From contig JABLXA010000010.1 of the NCBI GenBank assembly GCA_013178415.1, positions 1 through 64,000 of the forward strand: DNA of 64,000 nt, read 5' to 3'. Both the position numbers and the translations under genes were made by a program. The notes under the pieces were generated by a model. That model had not been told where the DNA came from, ran no database searches, and saw only the letters and a program-made list of their open reading frames with translations. Below, one piece after another: positions 25,623 to 34,267 of this stretch. The stretch's first letter is position 1. Every line of letters starts with the position of its first letter. Source of the stretch: Bacillota bacterium (lineage in GTDB: Bacteria; Bacillota; SHA-98; Ch115).

Positions 25623-25892
25623 CTAACCTTTATCTTCCTTATCCTGGCGCTCAACGGACATTCGAAACAATTTCTCCAGGCTGTTCACCTGTTCGCTCAA
25701 CCTCGCCAGCAACCCGCTGACCGCCTCGGCCTTGATCATCACCAATCCGTGGCCGCCAAAGCCTCCACCCAGCACCAGCATCTTGTCGCCAGGCTTGATC
25801 CCTTGAGCCTCCCTGGCTTGTTGGGGGATGACTACCTGCCCGCGTTCACCGACGGTTACGGCGCCATAAAAAATCGGTTCATGCCCAGTCAT
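25623..25892 (-). CDS. SpoVT/AbrB-family transcriptional regulator
   Basis: 89 residues. The swapped-hairpin domain is visible as AVTVGERGQVVIPQQAREAQGIKPGDKMLVLG, followed by a Gly-rich turn and a C-terminal helix SGLLARLSEQVNSLEKLF. Such short proteins lie directly upstream of two-gene ABC exporters in Bacillota and probably control them. The start follows AAGAAGG. It is transcribed in the same direction as the exporter genes, 107 bp ahead of them. The C-terminal helix may sense a ligand or dimerise; no enzymatic domain is present. Confidence 0.87.
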   Translation of the reverse strand: MTGHEPIFYGAVTVGERGQVVIPQQAREAQGIKPGDKMLVLGGGFGGHGLVMIKAEAVSGLLARLSEQVNSLEKLFRMSVERQDKEDKG

Positions 25893-26532: not shown

Positions 26533-27981
26533 TTGCCTATCGGACGTCACGGTATAAAAACGGCAAGTTTTGGGGTGTGCGCCCGGCGACTTAGGCTGGC
26601 AGAAGGTGTGCGCCTGCGACGGGAGCATTTCGGCGGGCTGGCGTTCCAAATGACTACCGGTACGACCGTTGATCTCGATCGGGAAGCCTTCACTTTGATC
26701 TCCGACGTGCAGGCAGAAGGAATAATCAGCGAAGATGCTTTGCTGATGCGCTGGGGCGCAGCCGCTAATTCCCGCACGGCGTCTCCAGCCACAACCAGAG
26801 AAGTGATATGGCGGCTCCTGGAATTAGGCGTTCTCCGGGAGGTGGCTTCCCCTTTCGCCCAAATCGAGAGCAAAGCGCCGGGGAGCACGAATCTTCCCCA
26901 AGGTGAGGGCGCGAATACCCTGAGCGGAACCTGGCCAGAGGGGTCACAGCTGAGTGCGCCCGAAACCGTGCATTGGGCGCTTACTTATCGCTGTGAGGCG
27001 AATTGCCCTGATTGTTATGCCACTCGCCATAGGAAGCGATTCTCCAAGGAATTAGACACCAGGGAAGCTATGCACGTGATGGAACGGATTGCCGCCTGGG
27101 GTGTTTTTCAGCTCGCCTTTGGCGGCGGAGAGCCTTTGCTCCGTCGTGACCTGACAGAGCTGGCAGCGTATGCGCGAGGAATCGGCTTTGTTGTCCATCT
27201 TACTACTGGGGTGGAAGAGATAGATGACTTGACCTGGCGAAAGTTGGCCCGGGGGGTCACCACTGTCCAAATCGGGGTCAAACCGGAGCGACTGCTGGCG
27301 CAACCGCTGGAGGAGGTGGCACGATTGCAGCGTTTAGTGGTGGGGGCGAAGGAAGTCGGCCTGCCAGTTGGCGCGAATCTTATGCTCTCAGCGTCGGTAA
27401 TGCGAAATTTCCTAGATTTAGTCCTCAGGCTTACGGAAGCGGGATTTATGCGCTTTACCCTCCTTCGCTATAAACCGCCTGCGTCTGCCACGCGCTGGCG
27501 GACAGAAAATCCAACGCCTGAAGCGATGGGCGCCTTTGAAAAGAATCTGCCGAAAATCCTGGCGCGCCAAGGCCGGGCGCTACAATGGCGGATTGACTGT
27601 GCGCTCGGTTTTCTCCAGCGCCGTCTGGCGCCCGTGCAGGCCTTGGTCGCCGGGATTCGGGGTTGCGCGGCGGCGAGTCGGATTGTTGCCCTCGCGCCGG
27701 ACGGCTCTGTTTTTCCCTGCTCACAGCTGGTCGCTCCAGCTCTGTTGGCCGGTAATATCTTGGCCGATGAGCCGACGCGGCTCTGGGCGGAAGCAATTCC
27801 GTTGCAGAGATACCGGGGTTTCAGGGCGACGGACGAGTTTATGCAGAGCGCGTGCGGTATCTGCGGGGCCAGGGAGCAGTGCGGCGGCTGCCGGGCCCTG
27901 GCTGAAGATGCCCTTGGGGGCGATAGCGGCTGCCCGGGACCTCTTTTCCCGCCCCGGACGCAACCGGGGGGAGGCGGATGA
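26533..27981 (+). CDS. Radical SAM/SPASM protein with PqqD-like N-terminal region
   Basis: 482 residues. The radical SAM cluster is C154-x3-C158-x2-C161 (CEANCPDC), followed by FGGGEPLLR, the GGE motif that binds SAM. The C-terminal part has C378, C396 with the preceding DGSVFPC, then CGICGAREQCGGC and C467. This is a SPASM-type pattern holding auxiliary Fe-S clusters. Residues 20-105 (VRLRREHFGGLAFQM, VDLDREAFTLISDVQ) resemble the RiPP-recognition PqqD fold. Enzymes of this build install crosslinks or other changes in ribosomal peptides. The start is TTG 26533 near GAGGAG, with a short spacing; GTG 26575 is an alternative. Its stop overlaps the next small gene by ATGA. Confidence 0.85.
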   Translation: MPIGRHGIKTASFGVCARRLRLAEGVRLRREHFGGLAFQMTTGTTVDLDREAFTLISDVQAEGIISEDALLMRWGAAANSRTASPATTREVIWRLLELGVLREVASPFAQIESKAPGSTNLPQGEGANTLSGTWPEGSQLSAPETVHWALTYRCEANCPDCYATRHRKRFSKELDTREAMHVMERIAAWGVFQLAFGGGEPLLRRDLTELAAYARGIGFVVHLTTGVEEIDDLTWRKLARGVTTVQIGVKPERLLAQPLEEVARLQRLVVGAKEVGLPVGANLMLSASVMRNFLDLVLRLTEAGFMRFTLLRYKPPASATRWRTENPTPEAMGAFEKNLPKILARQGRALQWRIDCALGFLQRRLAPVQALVAGIRGCAAASRIVALAPDGSVFPCSQLVAPALLAGNILADEPTRLWAEAIPLQRYRGFRATDEFMQSACGICGAREQCGGCRALAEDALGGDSGCPGPLFPPRTQPGGGG

Positions 27982-28070
27982 TTGACCTACGGGAATACTG
28001 CGGTTATCCTCTCTGGTTGATCGAGAATCTAGAAAGGGAACCTCAAGAGAGTTCAAGTGCTTATGATTGA
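27978..28070 (+). CDS. 30-residue peptide, candidate RiPP precursor
   Basis: The ATG lies in an ATGA overlap with the radical SAM stop, and the frame closes with TGA at 28068-28070. The peptide starts MIDLREYCGYPLW, continues LIENLEREPQ and ends ESSSAYD. It has one Cys (residue 8), two or more aromatic residues near it, and a hydrophilic C-terminus. No family is recognised. The overlap indicates translational coupling, and the following gene starts only 14 bp later behind GGAGGG. A maturase-adjacent short peptide is the usual setting of RiPP precursors, but 30 residues is short, and it could instead be a small structural partner or a coupling peptide. Confidence 0.55.
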   Translation: MIDLREYCGYPLWLIENLEREPQESSSAYD

Positions 28071-28084
28071 GGAGGGAATTGTTG

Positions 28085-28858
28085 GTGAAGATCATCAGTG
28101 TCCGGAAAGGTTTTACCGCTGATCATAGTTCCACCTCATACGAGTTTCTGGCGATTGACCGTCCTTTGGACCCGCAAGCAAGGAGCGCCGTTGCTAGCCT
28201 CTCGCGGCGGGCGAGACCCACATCTCGGCGGGTTAGTTTTGTCTACAATGTGGACGGCTATGATATCCCTGGTGGATGGGAAGCCTTAATGGAGAAATAT
28301 TACGATGTGATGTATATGGAAAGTTACGGCTGGTGGTTGCTGGCCATGGCCTTTAACGCTTCCCCTGGACAGCGGCAGGCATTAAAGGAATATGCCTTTG
28401 ACGGGGTTGAGGACTTAGGCGTCGAGATTCTCACGCGAGGTAACAGGGTGATCGTGGCGATTCATTGCCAACTTGAGGAGGGCTTTGCGCCAGACGAAGG
28501 CTGGGAGGCCTATGACGAAGATCCTGACGAGGAAGAGGAAGAAGGTAATGGTGAGGATGGGGATGAGGATGAAGACCACGGGGAATCGGTAGCCAGAAAT
28601 AAGGCAGAGCAAGTGGTTGTGGTCGAGACCGATAATTACCTTCTTAATCTATTAGGACAAATCCGCCGCCAGCTTATGGCCGGGGACTATCGCGCCCTCT
28701 ATGCGGTTTGGGAAAAGTACCGCTATTATGATGACGAGGAGGGAGAGAGCGAGGACGAGGCCGAAGGGGAGAAAGAGGAAGGACCTCCAGTGCCGCCGGA
28801 GAAGGAAACTGGCAAGCAAGTCATCTCGGCCCTACGTGATTTATTAGTAGTGCCTTAG
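28085..28858 (+). CDS. Acidic protein of unknown function, third gene of the radical SAM unit
   Basis: 257 residues from GTG 28085, chosen because GGAGGG lies 8 bases upstream; the frame opens at TTG 28067. The N-terminus KIISVRKGFTADHSSTSYEF is followed by LAIDRPLD, then WEALMEKYYDVMYMES. From memory, these last parts resemble a widespread family of hypothetical proteins starting YYEFLAIDRPL and found with SWIM zinc-finger proteins; I could not verify this. Residues around 145-180 and 220-240 are almost purely Asp/Glu. No catalytic motif, signal peptide or membrane segment is seen. Tight linkage to the radical SAM gene and the small peptide suggests a role as partner, carrier or target of the maturation. 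Confidence 0.75.
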   Translation: MKIISVRKGFTADHSSTSYEFLAIDRPLDPQARSAVASLSRRARPTSRRVSFVYNVDGYDIPGGWEALMEKYYDVMYMESYGWWLLAMAFNASPGQRQALKEYAFDGVEDLGVEILTRGNRVIVAIHCQLEEGFAPDEGWEAYDEDPDEEEEEGNGEDGDEDEDHGESVARNKAEQVVVVETDNYLLNLLGQIRRQLMAGDYRALYAVWEKYRYYDDEEGESEDEAEGEKEEGPPVPPEKETGKQVISALRDLLVVP

Positions 28859-28932: not shown

Positions 28933-29337
28933 TCAGGATTGCACTCCGTAAGGAATAAAGCCATATTGGGGAAAGTGTTGGTCAAAAGCCACGGCCTTGG
29001 TTATACCTAACCGCTCCATAGCTGCAAAGGTGGTTGCATCGGTGTAGGAAAAGGCCTTGTCGCGGTAAGTAAATATGATTACCCTGGCTTTCTCTTCGTC
29101 TTCTTCTGTGATTCGTTCCACAGGCCAACATAGCCCCTTTAACCAGCCCCTAGCTATCTCTGGGCCTAGTCTACTCATGAGCAAGGCATGACACTCAGCA
29201 ACAATGAAATTCGTAATTACCACCGCGACCTGGTGCTTCGCCAACTCTCTGAATAGGGATATGGCCTGTTGATGGAAGCCGTCGGACCGGTCCAACAACG
29301 CGTAGACTCCGCTTGTATCTATCATTATTTTTTCCAT
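28933..29337 (-). CDS. VapC-type PIN-domain toxin
   Basis: 134 residues with IMIDTSGVYALLDRSD (first Asp), FIVAECHALL (Glu), FSYTDATTFAAMERLG (Asp) and KAVAFDQHFPQYGF (last Asp). This is the full PIN acidic set, closest to the VapC group with long second helices. Expected to be an RNase toxin. Its start overlaps the upstream AbrB-type antitoxin by 13 bp on the same strand. Confidence 0.9.
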   Translation of the reverse strand: MEKIMIDTSGVYALLDRSDGFHQQAISLFRELAKHQVAVVITNFIVAECHALLMSRLGPEIARGWLKGLCWPVERITEEDEEKARVIIFTYRDKAFSYTDATTFAAMERLGITKAVAFDQHFPQYGFIPYGVQS

Positions 29338-29597
29338 CGTTCGACCTCCCCCTCGGCAAGATAATGGTCATGGTTTACGGAGATATCCGTGTAGCCGCTT
29401 GCTCCTGCACCGACTAAACGCCAGATAGGATCATCTGCACTCAAAGGGCGTACTGGCTCGACCTTTCGCAAACGGATCTCGTCGCCTTCCAGATAGATCT
29501 GGATATAGTCACCCTCACGGATGTTCAACCTCCTCCTAATCGAGATAGGGATTGTCAACTGCCCCTTGGCCGTCATTCGCATAAGCTCGTGGCTCAT
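29325..29597 (-). CDS. AbrB-type (VapB) antitoxin
   Basis: 90 residues. MRMTAKGQLTIPISIRRRLNIREGDYIQI is a clear swapped-hairpin AbrB/MazE DNA-binding domain. The tail ending HDHYLAEGEVERWKK is the likely toxin-binding part. GGAGGGAGAAG precedes ATG 29597. A good promoter and an inverted repeat lie directly upstream. Confidence 0.9.
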   Translation of the reverse strand: MSHELMRMTAKGQLTIPISIRRRLNIREGDYIQIYLEGDEIRLRKVEPVRPLSADDPIWRLVGAGASGYTDISVNHDHYLAEGEVERWKK

Positions 29598-31673: not shown

Positions 31674-33557
31674 ATGGCAATGGTCGAGGCTGTCGAGGCT
31701 AAGGTATTGCCGGTTGAGGAGCTGGTCTCTGAGGAGGAGTTCACCGACCGGGTGGAGGTGCTGAGGGAGCTCGAGGACTGGTACCGCAATATCAAGCGCA
31801 GGATCTCGAGCAGCCTTGCGCTCATCTCCCCTCGGCGGATGGGCAAGACCACTGTGCTCGACAGGTTGGTCAATATCGTATTCTTCAAAGACTATGACGT
31901 GGCTCCCTTCTACTTCAAGATGAAACGCGAGGAAACCACGCTGCGGAAGTTCCTGCTGGAATACTACACCACATTCTTCAGGCAGTATATTGCATACATG
32001 TTGAAGGATCCCTCGCTCTATAAGAATGAAGAGATGGATCTCAAGAGTCTATTGAATTTACGAACCAACAATGAGAAAGTAAGGTTCATTCAGAAAGAGA
32101 ATCTGAGAAGATTCATCGAGAGATATGAGGAATACGACTGGCAAGACGCCCGTAATCACTGGGAGGCTATGATCAAGACCCCTGAATTTCTTGGTGCGAT
32201 GCTCGGGGTTCATGTGGCAGTTATTATTGATGAATTCCAGGACATGAAGTTCTATGTTTACGATACTGACCAAATCCCACCGGATAAGAGGAACATTCCA
32301 GGATTGATAAACCTCACCGCCACATACGACCGCCAATCCCAGAGCAGGCGTGCTCCCATGCTGGTCGCTGGCTCCGCTGTAACCATGATATTCCGCACCG
32401 TCATGGGTGGGCCCCTTGGAGGGCGCTTTGGCTTTAAGTATTTGAAGCCCATGTCAATCGAGGATGGCGCCACCCTGATGAAGAAGCTCCTCAGGATGCG
32501 AGATTCAGACATCACCGATGAGCTTGCCATTTATTTGAGCTCCAGAGTAAACGGCCACCCTTACTACGTATACTGCTGCGCCGACTCTGACTGCCCCGAC
32601 AAGGATTTCACAATAAAGGAAGGCATCGACAGGGTCATAGAATACGAGGTCACAAGGGGCAAGATATTTGGCTTCTGGGAGACCCACTTTGCGGAGAACC
32701 GGCAGTATATAAATCAGGATAATGACATAGAGCTTGGGAAGAAGATCATCTACTATTTCACCAAGTACAACAACGCCCCTGTAGACATAGAGGAGATAGC
32801 AAATAAGCTCAAGGTGAACAAGTATGCGGTGGAGGAGAAGATAGAAAAGCTCTACCAGGCAGACTTGGTCTACAGAAGCGACTTCAAGTATTACACCTTC
32901 AACGACATCATGCTCATGCGCTACATCCAGCACCGGTATGAGAATGAGCTAAAGGATGTTGAGAAGGTGGATCTCAAGGAGCAGGGAACCTTCAACTATG
33001 TAAAGGGCAAGTTCCTGGAGATGGTGGTCCAGAATGTAATGTCCAGGTTCAACAACGAGGAGCTCGATGGGAGACTCTTCGGCCTCCCTGGAGAGGTTAT
33101 CATAGCTCCCCTCTTCAGGGCACGGGGAGATATGGTCGTGAAGCTTCCCACATCCGGCGAATATCAGGTTGATGCATACGGGGACTATGAGCGGGATGGG
33201 GTAAAGCATATATGGGTGGCGGAGTGCAAGTACCGGAAGGGCGAGCCCATGACCGCCCAGGAGGTAAAGAAAGCCCTTGAGGCAGCGGATGCGCTGAAGG
33301 AGATGCGGAGAGGCCAGGATCTTACGGTATGGCTTGTGTCGACGGGCGGGTTTACAAAGGATGCACTGGCTCTGATAAAAGAGTGTGAGATGCAAGGCGG
33401 TGGCGTGCAGGAGGGCGAGTTGCAAGGTGAGGCGCAAAAGAGCGGGGCAAAGAAGAGAGAGATTCAAAAGAGACGCTGCCTCTTCTCAGGCCAGGATGAG
33501 ATAAACGAGATCGCCAAGCTGTATGGCGTAGGGGTGAAAGTCGTAGAGCTGAAATAA
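31674..33557 (+). CDS. AAA-type ATPase with C-terminal PD-(D/E)XK-like domain, paralogue 1
   Basis: 627 residues. Walker A is ISPRRMGKTTVL at 51-62, Walker B is VAVIIDEFQDM near 181-190, and sensor-like LVAGSAVTMIFR follows, as in the archaeal-type ATPase family (ATPase_2). A winged-helix-like segment (NKLKVNKYAVEEKIEKLYQAD) is in the middle. The last quarter has YQVDAYGDY and WVAECKYRKGE, matching the D...ExK of a restriction-endonuclease-like fold. It differs from its paralogue at 46976-48757 by an extra hydrophilic run of about 27 residues (CEMQGGGVQEGELQGEAQ...) near the end. The role is unknown; a DNA-processing or defence function is plausible. Confidence 0.82.
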   Translation: MAMVEAVEAKVLPVEELVSEEEFTDRVEVLRELEDWYRNIKRRISSSLALISPRRMGKTTVLDRLVNIVFFKDYDVAPFYFKMKREETTLRKFLLEYYTTFFRQYIAYMLKDPSLYKNEEMDLKSLLNLRTNNEKVRFIQKENLRRFIERYEEYDWQDARNHWEAMIKTPEFLGAMLGVHVAVIIDEFQDMKFYVYDTDQIPPDKRNIPGLINLTATYDRQSQSRRAPMLVAGSAVTMIFRTVMGGPLGGRFGFKYLKPMSIEDGATLMKKLLRMRDSDITDELAIYLSSRVNGHPYYVYCCADSDCPDKDFTIKEGIDRVIEYEVTRGKIFGFWETHFAENRQYINQDNDIELGKKIIYYFTKYNNAPVDIEEIANKLKVNKYAVEEKIEKLYQADLVYRSDFKYYTFNDIMLMRYIQHRYENELKDVEKVDLKEQGTFNYVKGKFLEMVVQNVMSRFNNEELDGRLFGLPGEVIIAPLFRARGDMVVKLPTSGEYQVDAYGDYERDGVKHIWVAECKYRKGEPMTAQEVKKALEAADALKEMRRGQDLTVWLVSTGGFTKDALALIKECEMQGGGVQEGELQGEAQKSGAKKREIQKRRCLFSGQDEINEIAKLYGVGVKVVELK

Positions 33558-33627: not shown

Positions 33628-34038
33628 TCACGGTTCCACCCGCACCACGTCGGGGATTCGGTCAAAATCCCGGTCGTAAGAGTAGATGGTCCCCGCTTCC
33701 TGGGAGATGAGCTGTGCAGCCACGAAGGCGTCAGTCCAATCGATGTTGTAGCGCACGTAAAGGCGCAAAGCCAGGAAAACGGCCTCCTTCCCCGAGCAGT
33801 GCAGACCACGCAGGTTCATAATCGGCGTAAGCAGATCGGCGATCTCTGCCTTACTCTGCCGGTAGAACTTCTCCAGGGTCCAGATTACGTCCGCTAACAC
33901 CAGGTCTGGAAGCCAAACCTGTTCCTCGTTGCGCTCCACCTTCTCAAGCAGAGCTGAGCAGGCTTCCGCTTTCTGCGGGTTATCATTGGTCAGGAAGCGT
34001 AGGATGATGTTGGCATCAAGCACGGGTATTTTTCGCAT
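33628..34038 (-). CDS. VapC-type PIN-domain toxin
   Basis: 136 residues from ATG 34038; the frame runs further upstream without similarity. VLDANIILRFLTND (Asp), LADVIWTLEKFYR (acidic), NIDWTDAFVAAQL (Asp) and IYSYDRDFDRIPDV (final Asp) make a complete PIN domain. It overlaps the AbrB-type antitoxin gene by 23 bp. Confidence 0.9.
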   Translation of the reverse strand: MRKIPVLDANIILRFLTNDNPQKAEACSALLEKVERNEEQVWLPDLVLADVIWTLEKFYRQSKAEIADLLTPIMNLRGLHCSGKEAVFLALRLYVRYNIDWTDAFVAAQLISQEAGTIYSYDRDFDRIPDVVRVEP

Positions 34039-34267
34039 TGATACGGTCCTCCATGGCGGCGTGACGGGCTTTCTTAAAGTCCTGAGGGCCGCTGACGGCG
34101 ACCTTCCCGCGCAGGCTGGCAATCCCCTGAGGCGCGAGGGTCACCCGGAAATCGCGCTCCCCCTCAATGAAGCGAAGGTAGGTCCCGGGTTTGATATTGA
34201 ACCGTTTCCGCAACCCCGCCGGAAGCGTGATCTGCCCCTTACTCGAGACTTTGACGATTTCCGACAT
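34016..34267 (-). CDS. AbrB-type (VapB) antitoxin
   Basis: 83 residues. MSEIVKVSSKGQITLPAGLR and KRFNIKPGTYLRF form a swapped-hairpin AbrB domain. The basic C-terminus (KKARHAAMEDRINAKN) probably contacts the toxin. A consensus-like promoter is upstream, and AAAGGAGATG precedes the start. Confidence 0.9.
   Translation of the reverse strand: MSEIVKVSSKGQITLPAGLRKRFNIKPGTYLRFIEGERDFRVTLAPQGIASLRGKVAVSGPQDFKKARHAAMEDRINAKNTRA

Follow-up and report, generated by a model that had tools for sequence, protein, structure and literature searches.

Sequence comparison shows that the genes for a radical SAM (rSAM) enzyme and for the acidic HSSTSYEF protein directly downstream of it are a conserved pair, one that appears not to have been described. 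We lean slightly towards reading the pair as a protein-maturation unit, in which the enzyme holds and modifies the N-terminus of its partner and in which the enzyme tail of the genome studied here was truncated by a frame shift and a deletion. The partner as substrate, its N-terminus as the site that the enzyme probably modifies, and the chemistry are what we infer. The short open reading frame (ORF) between the two genes, which a first-pass annotation had taken for a RiPP precursor, is by its alignment a broken, frame-shifted leftover of the enzyme's own C-terminal tail.

The window, i.e. the whole 64,000-nucleotide stretch of Bacillota DNA that was analysed, encodes the enzyme at 26533..27981 (+), a 482-aa RRE-radical SAM-SPASM protein with a TTG start, whose core is intact and whose C-terminal tail is removed by the frame shift. 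The reading frame departs from the homologous tail frame within 27949..27981 (+), where a G-rich stretch lies ahead of the TGA. A 30-aa ORF at 27978..28070 (+) overlaps the rSAM ORF by 4 bp (ATGA), and a gap of 14 bp separates it from the 257-aa acidic protein (28085..28858, +), which has a GTG start and carries HSSTSYEF near its N-terminus. The coordinates, overlap and gap first given for these three packed frames hold, as does the description of the acidic protein; the middle frame does not stand as a gene of its own, being a tail remnant that is absent from homologous loci. Neither the 30-aa frame nor the acidic protein matched Pfam at a meaningful level. Convergent with the rSAM-partner unit lies a PIN-domain protein gene (28933-29337) with a MazE/AbrB-type antitoxin gene (29325-29597), together spanning 28933-29597 (-). 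A second MazE-type gene is found at 25623-25892 (-) and another PIN protein gene at 33628-34122 (-), and the product of 31674-33557 (+) combines an N-terminal ATPase_2-like part (below the cut-off) with a C-terminal Mrr-type nuclease domain.

The enzyme is, by sequence and predicted fold, an RRE-radical SAM-SPASM protein closest to SuiB. Its radical SAM/SPASM identity, proposed in the first-pass annotation, is borne out by a match to Pfam Radical_SAM (PF04055, 2.9e-12), by a SPASM match slightly below the cut-off (0.0005) and by a TIGR04085 score of 31.7 bits against a cut-off of 27. The CX3CX2C cluster motif of the radical SAM superfamily is present as C154-X3-C158-X2-C161 and is invariant in the family, as are the SPASM cysteines at 378, 396, 441, 444, 450, 453 and 467. 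These are arranged as C378-X12-G-X4-C396, C441-X2-C444-X5-C450-X2-C453 and C467, and so differ in one spacing (X2, not X3) from the seven-cysteine pattern of the SPASM subfamily, CX9-15GX4C-gap-CX2CX5CX3C-gap-C (PMC6231123). Every invariant column of the family is present in the window enzyme. The N-terminus had been called PqqD-like; PF05402 (PqqD) does not match it, and what supports an RRE (PqqD/SuiB-like) domain at 26575..26850 (+) is a profile of the N-terminal domain alone, which finds SuiB as its best PDB match (E=1.9e-4), together with a predicted fold whose strands and helices follow the RRE order. The full family profile likewise places SuiB first in the PDB (3e-21), with an alignment that starts from the N-terminal domain. 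The intact homologue from Fuchsiella (L025) was modelled with AlphaFold2 (mean pLDDT 77): strands at the N-terminus are followed by three helices and then by the rSAM and SPASM domains, after which comes a C-terminal part, of lower confidence, with a helix/strand order resembling a winged helix. A fold search with this model again returned SuiB as the best PDB match (5.6e-17), and BlsE and AbmM were also among the matches.

SuiB, which with SuiA makes streptide by a Lys-Trp cross-link (PDB 5v1q, 5v1t), is thus the nearest known enzyme and has the same N-terminal RRE, radical SAM and two-auxiliary-cluster SPASM domains. The identity is, however, about 20%, most homologues of the window enzyme carry an additional tail predicted to be winged-helix-like, and the partner is a folded protein rather than a short peptide; no conserved SuiA-like small-peptide gene was found, nor any Trp in the conserved partner segment that a Lys-Trp cross-link would use. 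PqqE/PqqD and mycofactocin MftC/MftB share the RRE plus rSAM/SPASM logic and are among the best NCBIfam matches, but here the RRE is fused rather than separate, a conserved small-peptide gene is missing, and the scores are far under the cut-offs (PqqE 92 of 381 bits, mycofactocin maturase 83 of 265, GeoRSP 78 of 400). The short conserved precursor expected next to an RRE-fused maturase was not found in the ~20 loci, and the partner segment has no Cys of the kind that a sactipeptide or ranthipeptide substrate contains. By these criteria the pair falls outside the PqqE, mycofactocin, GeoRSP and sactipeptide systems.

The origin of the 30-aa ORF is evident from the ends of the homologous enzymes. 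The window enzyme terminates after PPRTQPGGGG, where homologues read PP.TQLGK.GR.LDL.EY. In the homologues PPxTQ(L/P)G..GR runs on in frame as a tail, whereas in the window the continuation, RMIDLREYCGYPLWLIENLERE, lies in another frame. Its first part corresponds to the tail start (RKLDLKEYC in L036) and its second part to the tail end (YPRWILKGRLSDRE in L036), so that the peptide MIDLREYCGYPLWLIENLERE joins the first and last parts of an rSAM tail (DLKEYC…YPRWI) and lacks about 80 residues from the middle. None of 50,000 shuffles reached the score of the peptide against both tail anchors, and among 51,631 31-mers from the six-frame translation of the window the anchor score was reached by the peptide itself, in two registers, and by nothing else. 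The frame shift, seen in one genome, may be a true event or an assembly error; the internal deletion in the remnant is not explicable by a single-base error.

Apart from the window, the end of the rSAM can be read in 20 loci. In 19 of these an in-frame tail continues for 31-145 residues beyond the SPASM domain and reaches, or just enters, the acidic gene; the remaining one, L028, has a stop that interrupts its tail just before the YPxW end. The long form reads RKLDLKEY...YMERYGVGQ.RAVKEL...DIQESIGFTSGG.PFAS.EEI..WLEE....YP.WL, and short forms retain YPxW. Outside the window the distance from the rSAM gene to the partner gene is -44 to +38 nt, which leaves no space for a third gene, and a separate conserved small ORF was found in none of the ~20 homologous loci. 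Shortening or interruption of the tail has occurred repeatedly in the family, with the YPxW end tending to persist (L028:3602-5230, L010:6578-8029 and 27949-28070 of the window).

The position and overlap of the small ORF do resemble a RiPP locus, and the first-pass annotation accordingly proposed a peptide modified by the rSAM protein. Because the homologous loci lack the small frame and its product matches the rSAM tail in sequence, this proposal is refuted, and we give it next to no credence. The outcome that had been named in advance as refuting it, a small frame that is unconserved or broken in homologous loci, is what the comparison of ~20 loci returned. Cys8, put forward as a residue that would support a precursor, falls on a tail position that reads DLKEYC in L036 and DLENYL or DLTEYL elsewhere; it is the single Cys of the remnant and is not conserved in the homologous tails. 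The 30-aa precursor was rejected on the locus comparison and the tail-anchor scoring together. Another use of the remnant would be as a detached tail subunit, with re-initiation at the ATGA overlap yielding a shortened tail peptide. The overlap itself, the sequence GGGGGGAGG just upstream and the retained YPxW end, which L010 also keeps in a tail that is cut down and still fused, are in keeping with this; the loss of the predicted winged-helix part, the stop in the tail end of L028 and the widely varying tail lengths, which suggest weak constraint, make it rather improbable.

Pairing of the enzyme with the HSSTSYEF protein was observed in ~20 loci, which come from at least five phyla and have the HSSTSYEF gene directly 3' of the rSAM gene. 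Sixteen loci are in named genomes, namely Paradesulfitobacterium, Desulfosporosinus, Natroniella, Fuchsiella, other Bacillota MAGs, Elusimicrobiota, KSB1, Aerophobota and Bacteroidota MAGs. The loci were found by a search with the acidic protein, and nearly all have a homologous rSAM gene immediately upstream on the same strand; relatives also occur in other genera within the same phylum. In Bacillota, Elusimicrobiota, KSB1, Aerophobota and Bacteroidota alike, the homologous loci consist of two genes only, and no further family is shared by more than three of 25 neighbourhoods. Of 399 genomes of the phylum, eight have the specific rSAM (E<=1e-166), and these same eight are the ones with an intact partner; the next-best rSAM match (1e-41) does not include the N-terminal domain. 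In one genome (G088) the genes of the pair are at the ends of two contigs, which is consistent with an assembly break. The distance matrices of the rSAM and partner families correlate at r=0.81, a value to which the shared ancestry of adjoining genes also contributes. No viral contig was found to encode a relative of the rSAM, and no partner homologue was found in phage and plasmid records.

Remnants of the pair were found in two genomes: G314 (L040) has a broken rSAM in pieces, with stops, beside a partner fragment that itself carries a stop, and G312 (L039) has a lone partner fragment. The window copy as a whole might likewise be decaying, its tail already lost and the pair disappearing as in these genomes. 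The remnants and the window's own frame shift and deletion point in this direction, but all invariant rSAM, SPASM and partner columns are intact in the window copy, and we regard such decay as unlikely.

Members of the HSSTSYEF family are ~220-260 residues long and share 33 invariant columns, all of which are present in the window copy. In the model of the partner (mean pLDDT 77), a well-predicted domain at residues ~17-130 (mostly above 90) is followed by an acidic linker and, at the C-terminus, by helices. The first 14 residues have pLDDT below 50 and are predicted to be disordered. Searches with the partner against Pfam, NCBIfam, PHROGs, PADLOC, PDB sequences and PDB folds returned nothing significant; in the fold search no PDB entry matched at E<=0.001, and the best was a weak, poorly superposed ACT-like similarity to an aspartate kinase regulatory subunit (2.6e-3). 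We found no paper on the motif. We also considered whether the segment might be a case of a general N-terminal motif, GFxxNSSSSSF: Pfam gave no family for short test peptides, and in 12 genomes the DNA pattern did not exceed background.

No other partner segment is as conserved as residues 9-23 (mean 0.91, 11 of 15 invariant). They belong to the N-terminal segment of residues 1-23, VKIISVRKGFTADHSSTSYEFLA (28085..28153, +), with the consensus K-I-I-S-V-R-K-G-F-x-A/S-D-H-S-S-T-S-Y-E-F. We propose this segment as the recognition and modification site: it is predicted to be largely disordered, is almost unchanged in sequence from phylum to phylum and was seen only with the rSAM, and so resembles such a site. 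The first-pass annotation set the acidic protein aside as not a known RiPP component; it is the conserved partner, and a better substrate candidate than the 30-aa peptide. A radical SAM maturation unit is plausible from the RRE, rSAM and SPASM domains and the strictly linked partner gene, but not as a three-gene RiPP locus with a peptide.

Relatives of the partner that lack the segment are also found. A distant one, encoded in G376 (27% identity over 220 aa, 2e-10 pairwise), is a member of an unnamed set of proteins that start with MSEYQYYEF, and G376 has no match to the specific rSAM family at 1e-30. These proteins align along the length of the HSSTSYEF protein as distant homologues but, unlike it, have no N-terminal extension and often have a longer C-terminus: all six that were aligned lack ~12 N-terminal residues that every rSAM-linked protein carries and that the conserved stretch GF..DHSSTSYEF overlaps. 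In five annotated regions around MSEYQYYEF genes no rSAM is annotated alongside. The family (~270-400 aa; L041:6560-7733 (-), L087-L091) is spread over actinobacteria, cyanobacteria, proteobacteria and Bacteroidota. Its hosts include Rhodococcus, Streptomyces, Trichormus and Paraburkholderia. It occurs in 27 plasmid records from actinobacteria, cyanobacteria, Acinetobacter and others, and some of the plasmid genes are near toxin-antitoxin, HNH or helicase genes. At the thresholds used, one member had no Pfam match and five had no NCBIfam match.

The folded domain predicted at residues 17-130 and the existence of a related rSAM-free family could also mean that the HSSTSYEF protein serves the enzyme as a partner or scaffold, with an N-terminus that docks on the RRE, the real substrate being a small molecule or another protein encoded elsewhere; the conserved N-terminus could be a docking peptide or a signal. 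Some fold-related rSAM enzymes do use small molecules, BlsE and AbmM being in the fold list. The RRE-rSAM-SPASM/Twitch build is common to SuiB, CteB and SkfB; in the SuiB crystal the leader was neither held by the RRE nor in contact with it (PMC6231123). Against a scaffold, fusion of an RRE to rSAM/SPASM typically marks an enzyme with a ribosomal substrate, and the invariance extends to side chains (D, H, S, S, T, S, Y), beyond residues that form a strand. We consider a scaffold possible, though doubtful.

For the maturation unit that we favour, QhpD may serve as the nearest working model. It modifies QhpC, the gamma subunit of quinohemoprotein amine dehydrogenase, an operon-encoded protein that is held via its N-terminal leader (PMC7876137), and the anatomy of partner and segment here appears to fit. 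QhpD forms Cys-Asp/Glu thioethers, whereas the segment here contains no Cys, and further genes of such a system do not recur in the neighbourhood. In the proposed mechanism the enzyme would hold the flexible extra N-terminal segment of the folded partner, and a radical from the CX3CX2C cluster would modify a residue in the invariant DHSSTSY stretch. As Cys is absent from partner residues 1-23 (and none is invariant anywhere in the partner), thioether chemistry there is unlikely, and a C-C or C-O bond with His, Ser, Thr or Tyr would be the more likely product. In the window genome the enzyme tail, whose length varies across the family, would have been truncated by the frame shift and internal deletion, its leftover reading as a 30-codon ORF.

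A truncated enzyme tail can therefore mimic a RiPP precursor, and removal of the false precursor puts a testable pair in its place. Cultured hosts of the pair exist in Fuchsiella, Natroniella and Paradesulfitobacterium, and the MSEYQYYEF family, which lacks the segment and occurs where this rSAM was not found, is a natural control. We tentatively suggest that in this pair, found mostly in anaerobes, one branch of a widespread family of unnamed proteins gained a short segment, which the enzyme turns into a cross-linked or cofactor-like group with no cysteine involved. To our knowledge, few radical SAM enzymes act on a folded partner protein by modifying a leader-like N-terminus. If the suggestion is true, the modified N-terminal group would give the folded partner protein a new function.
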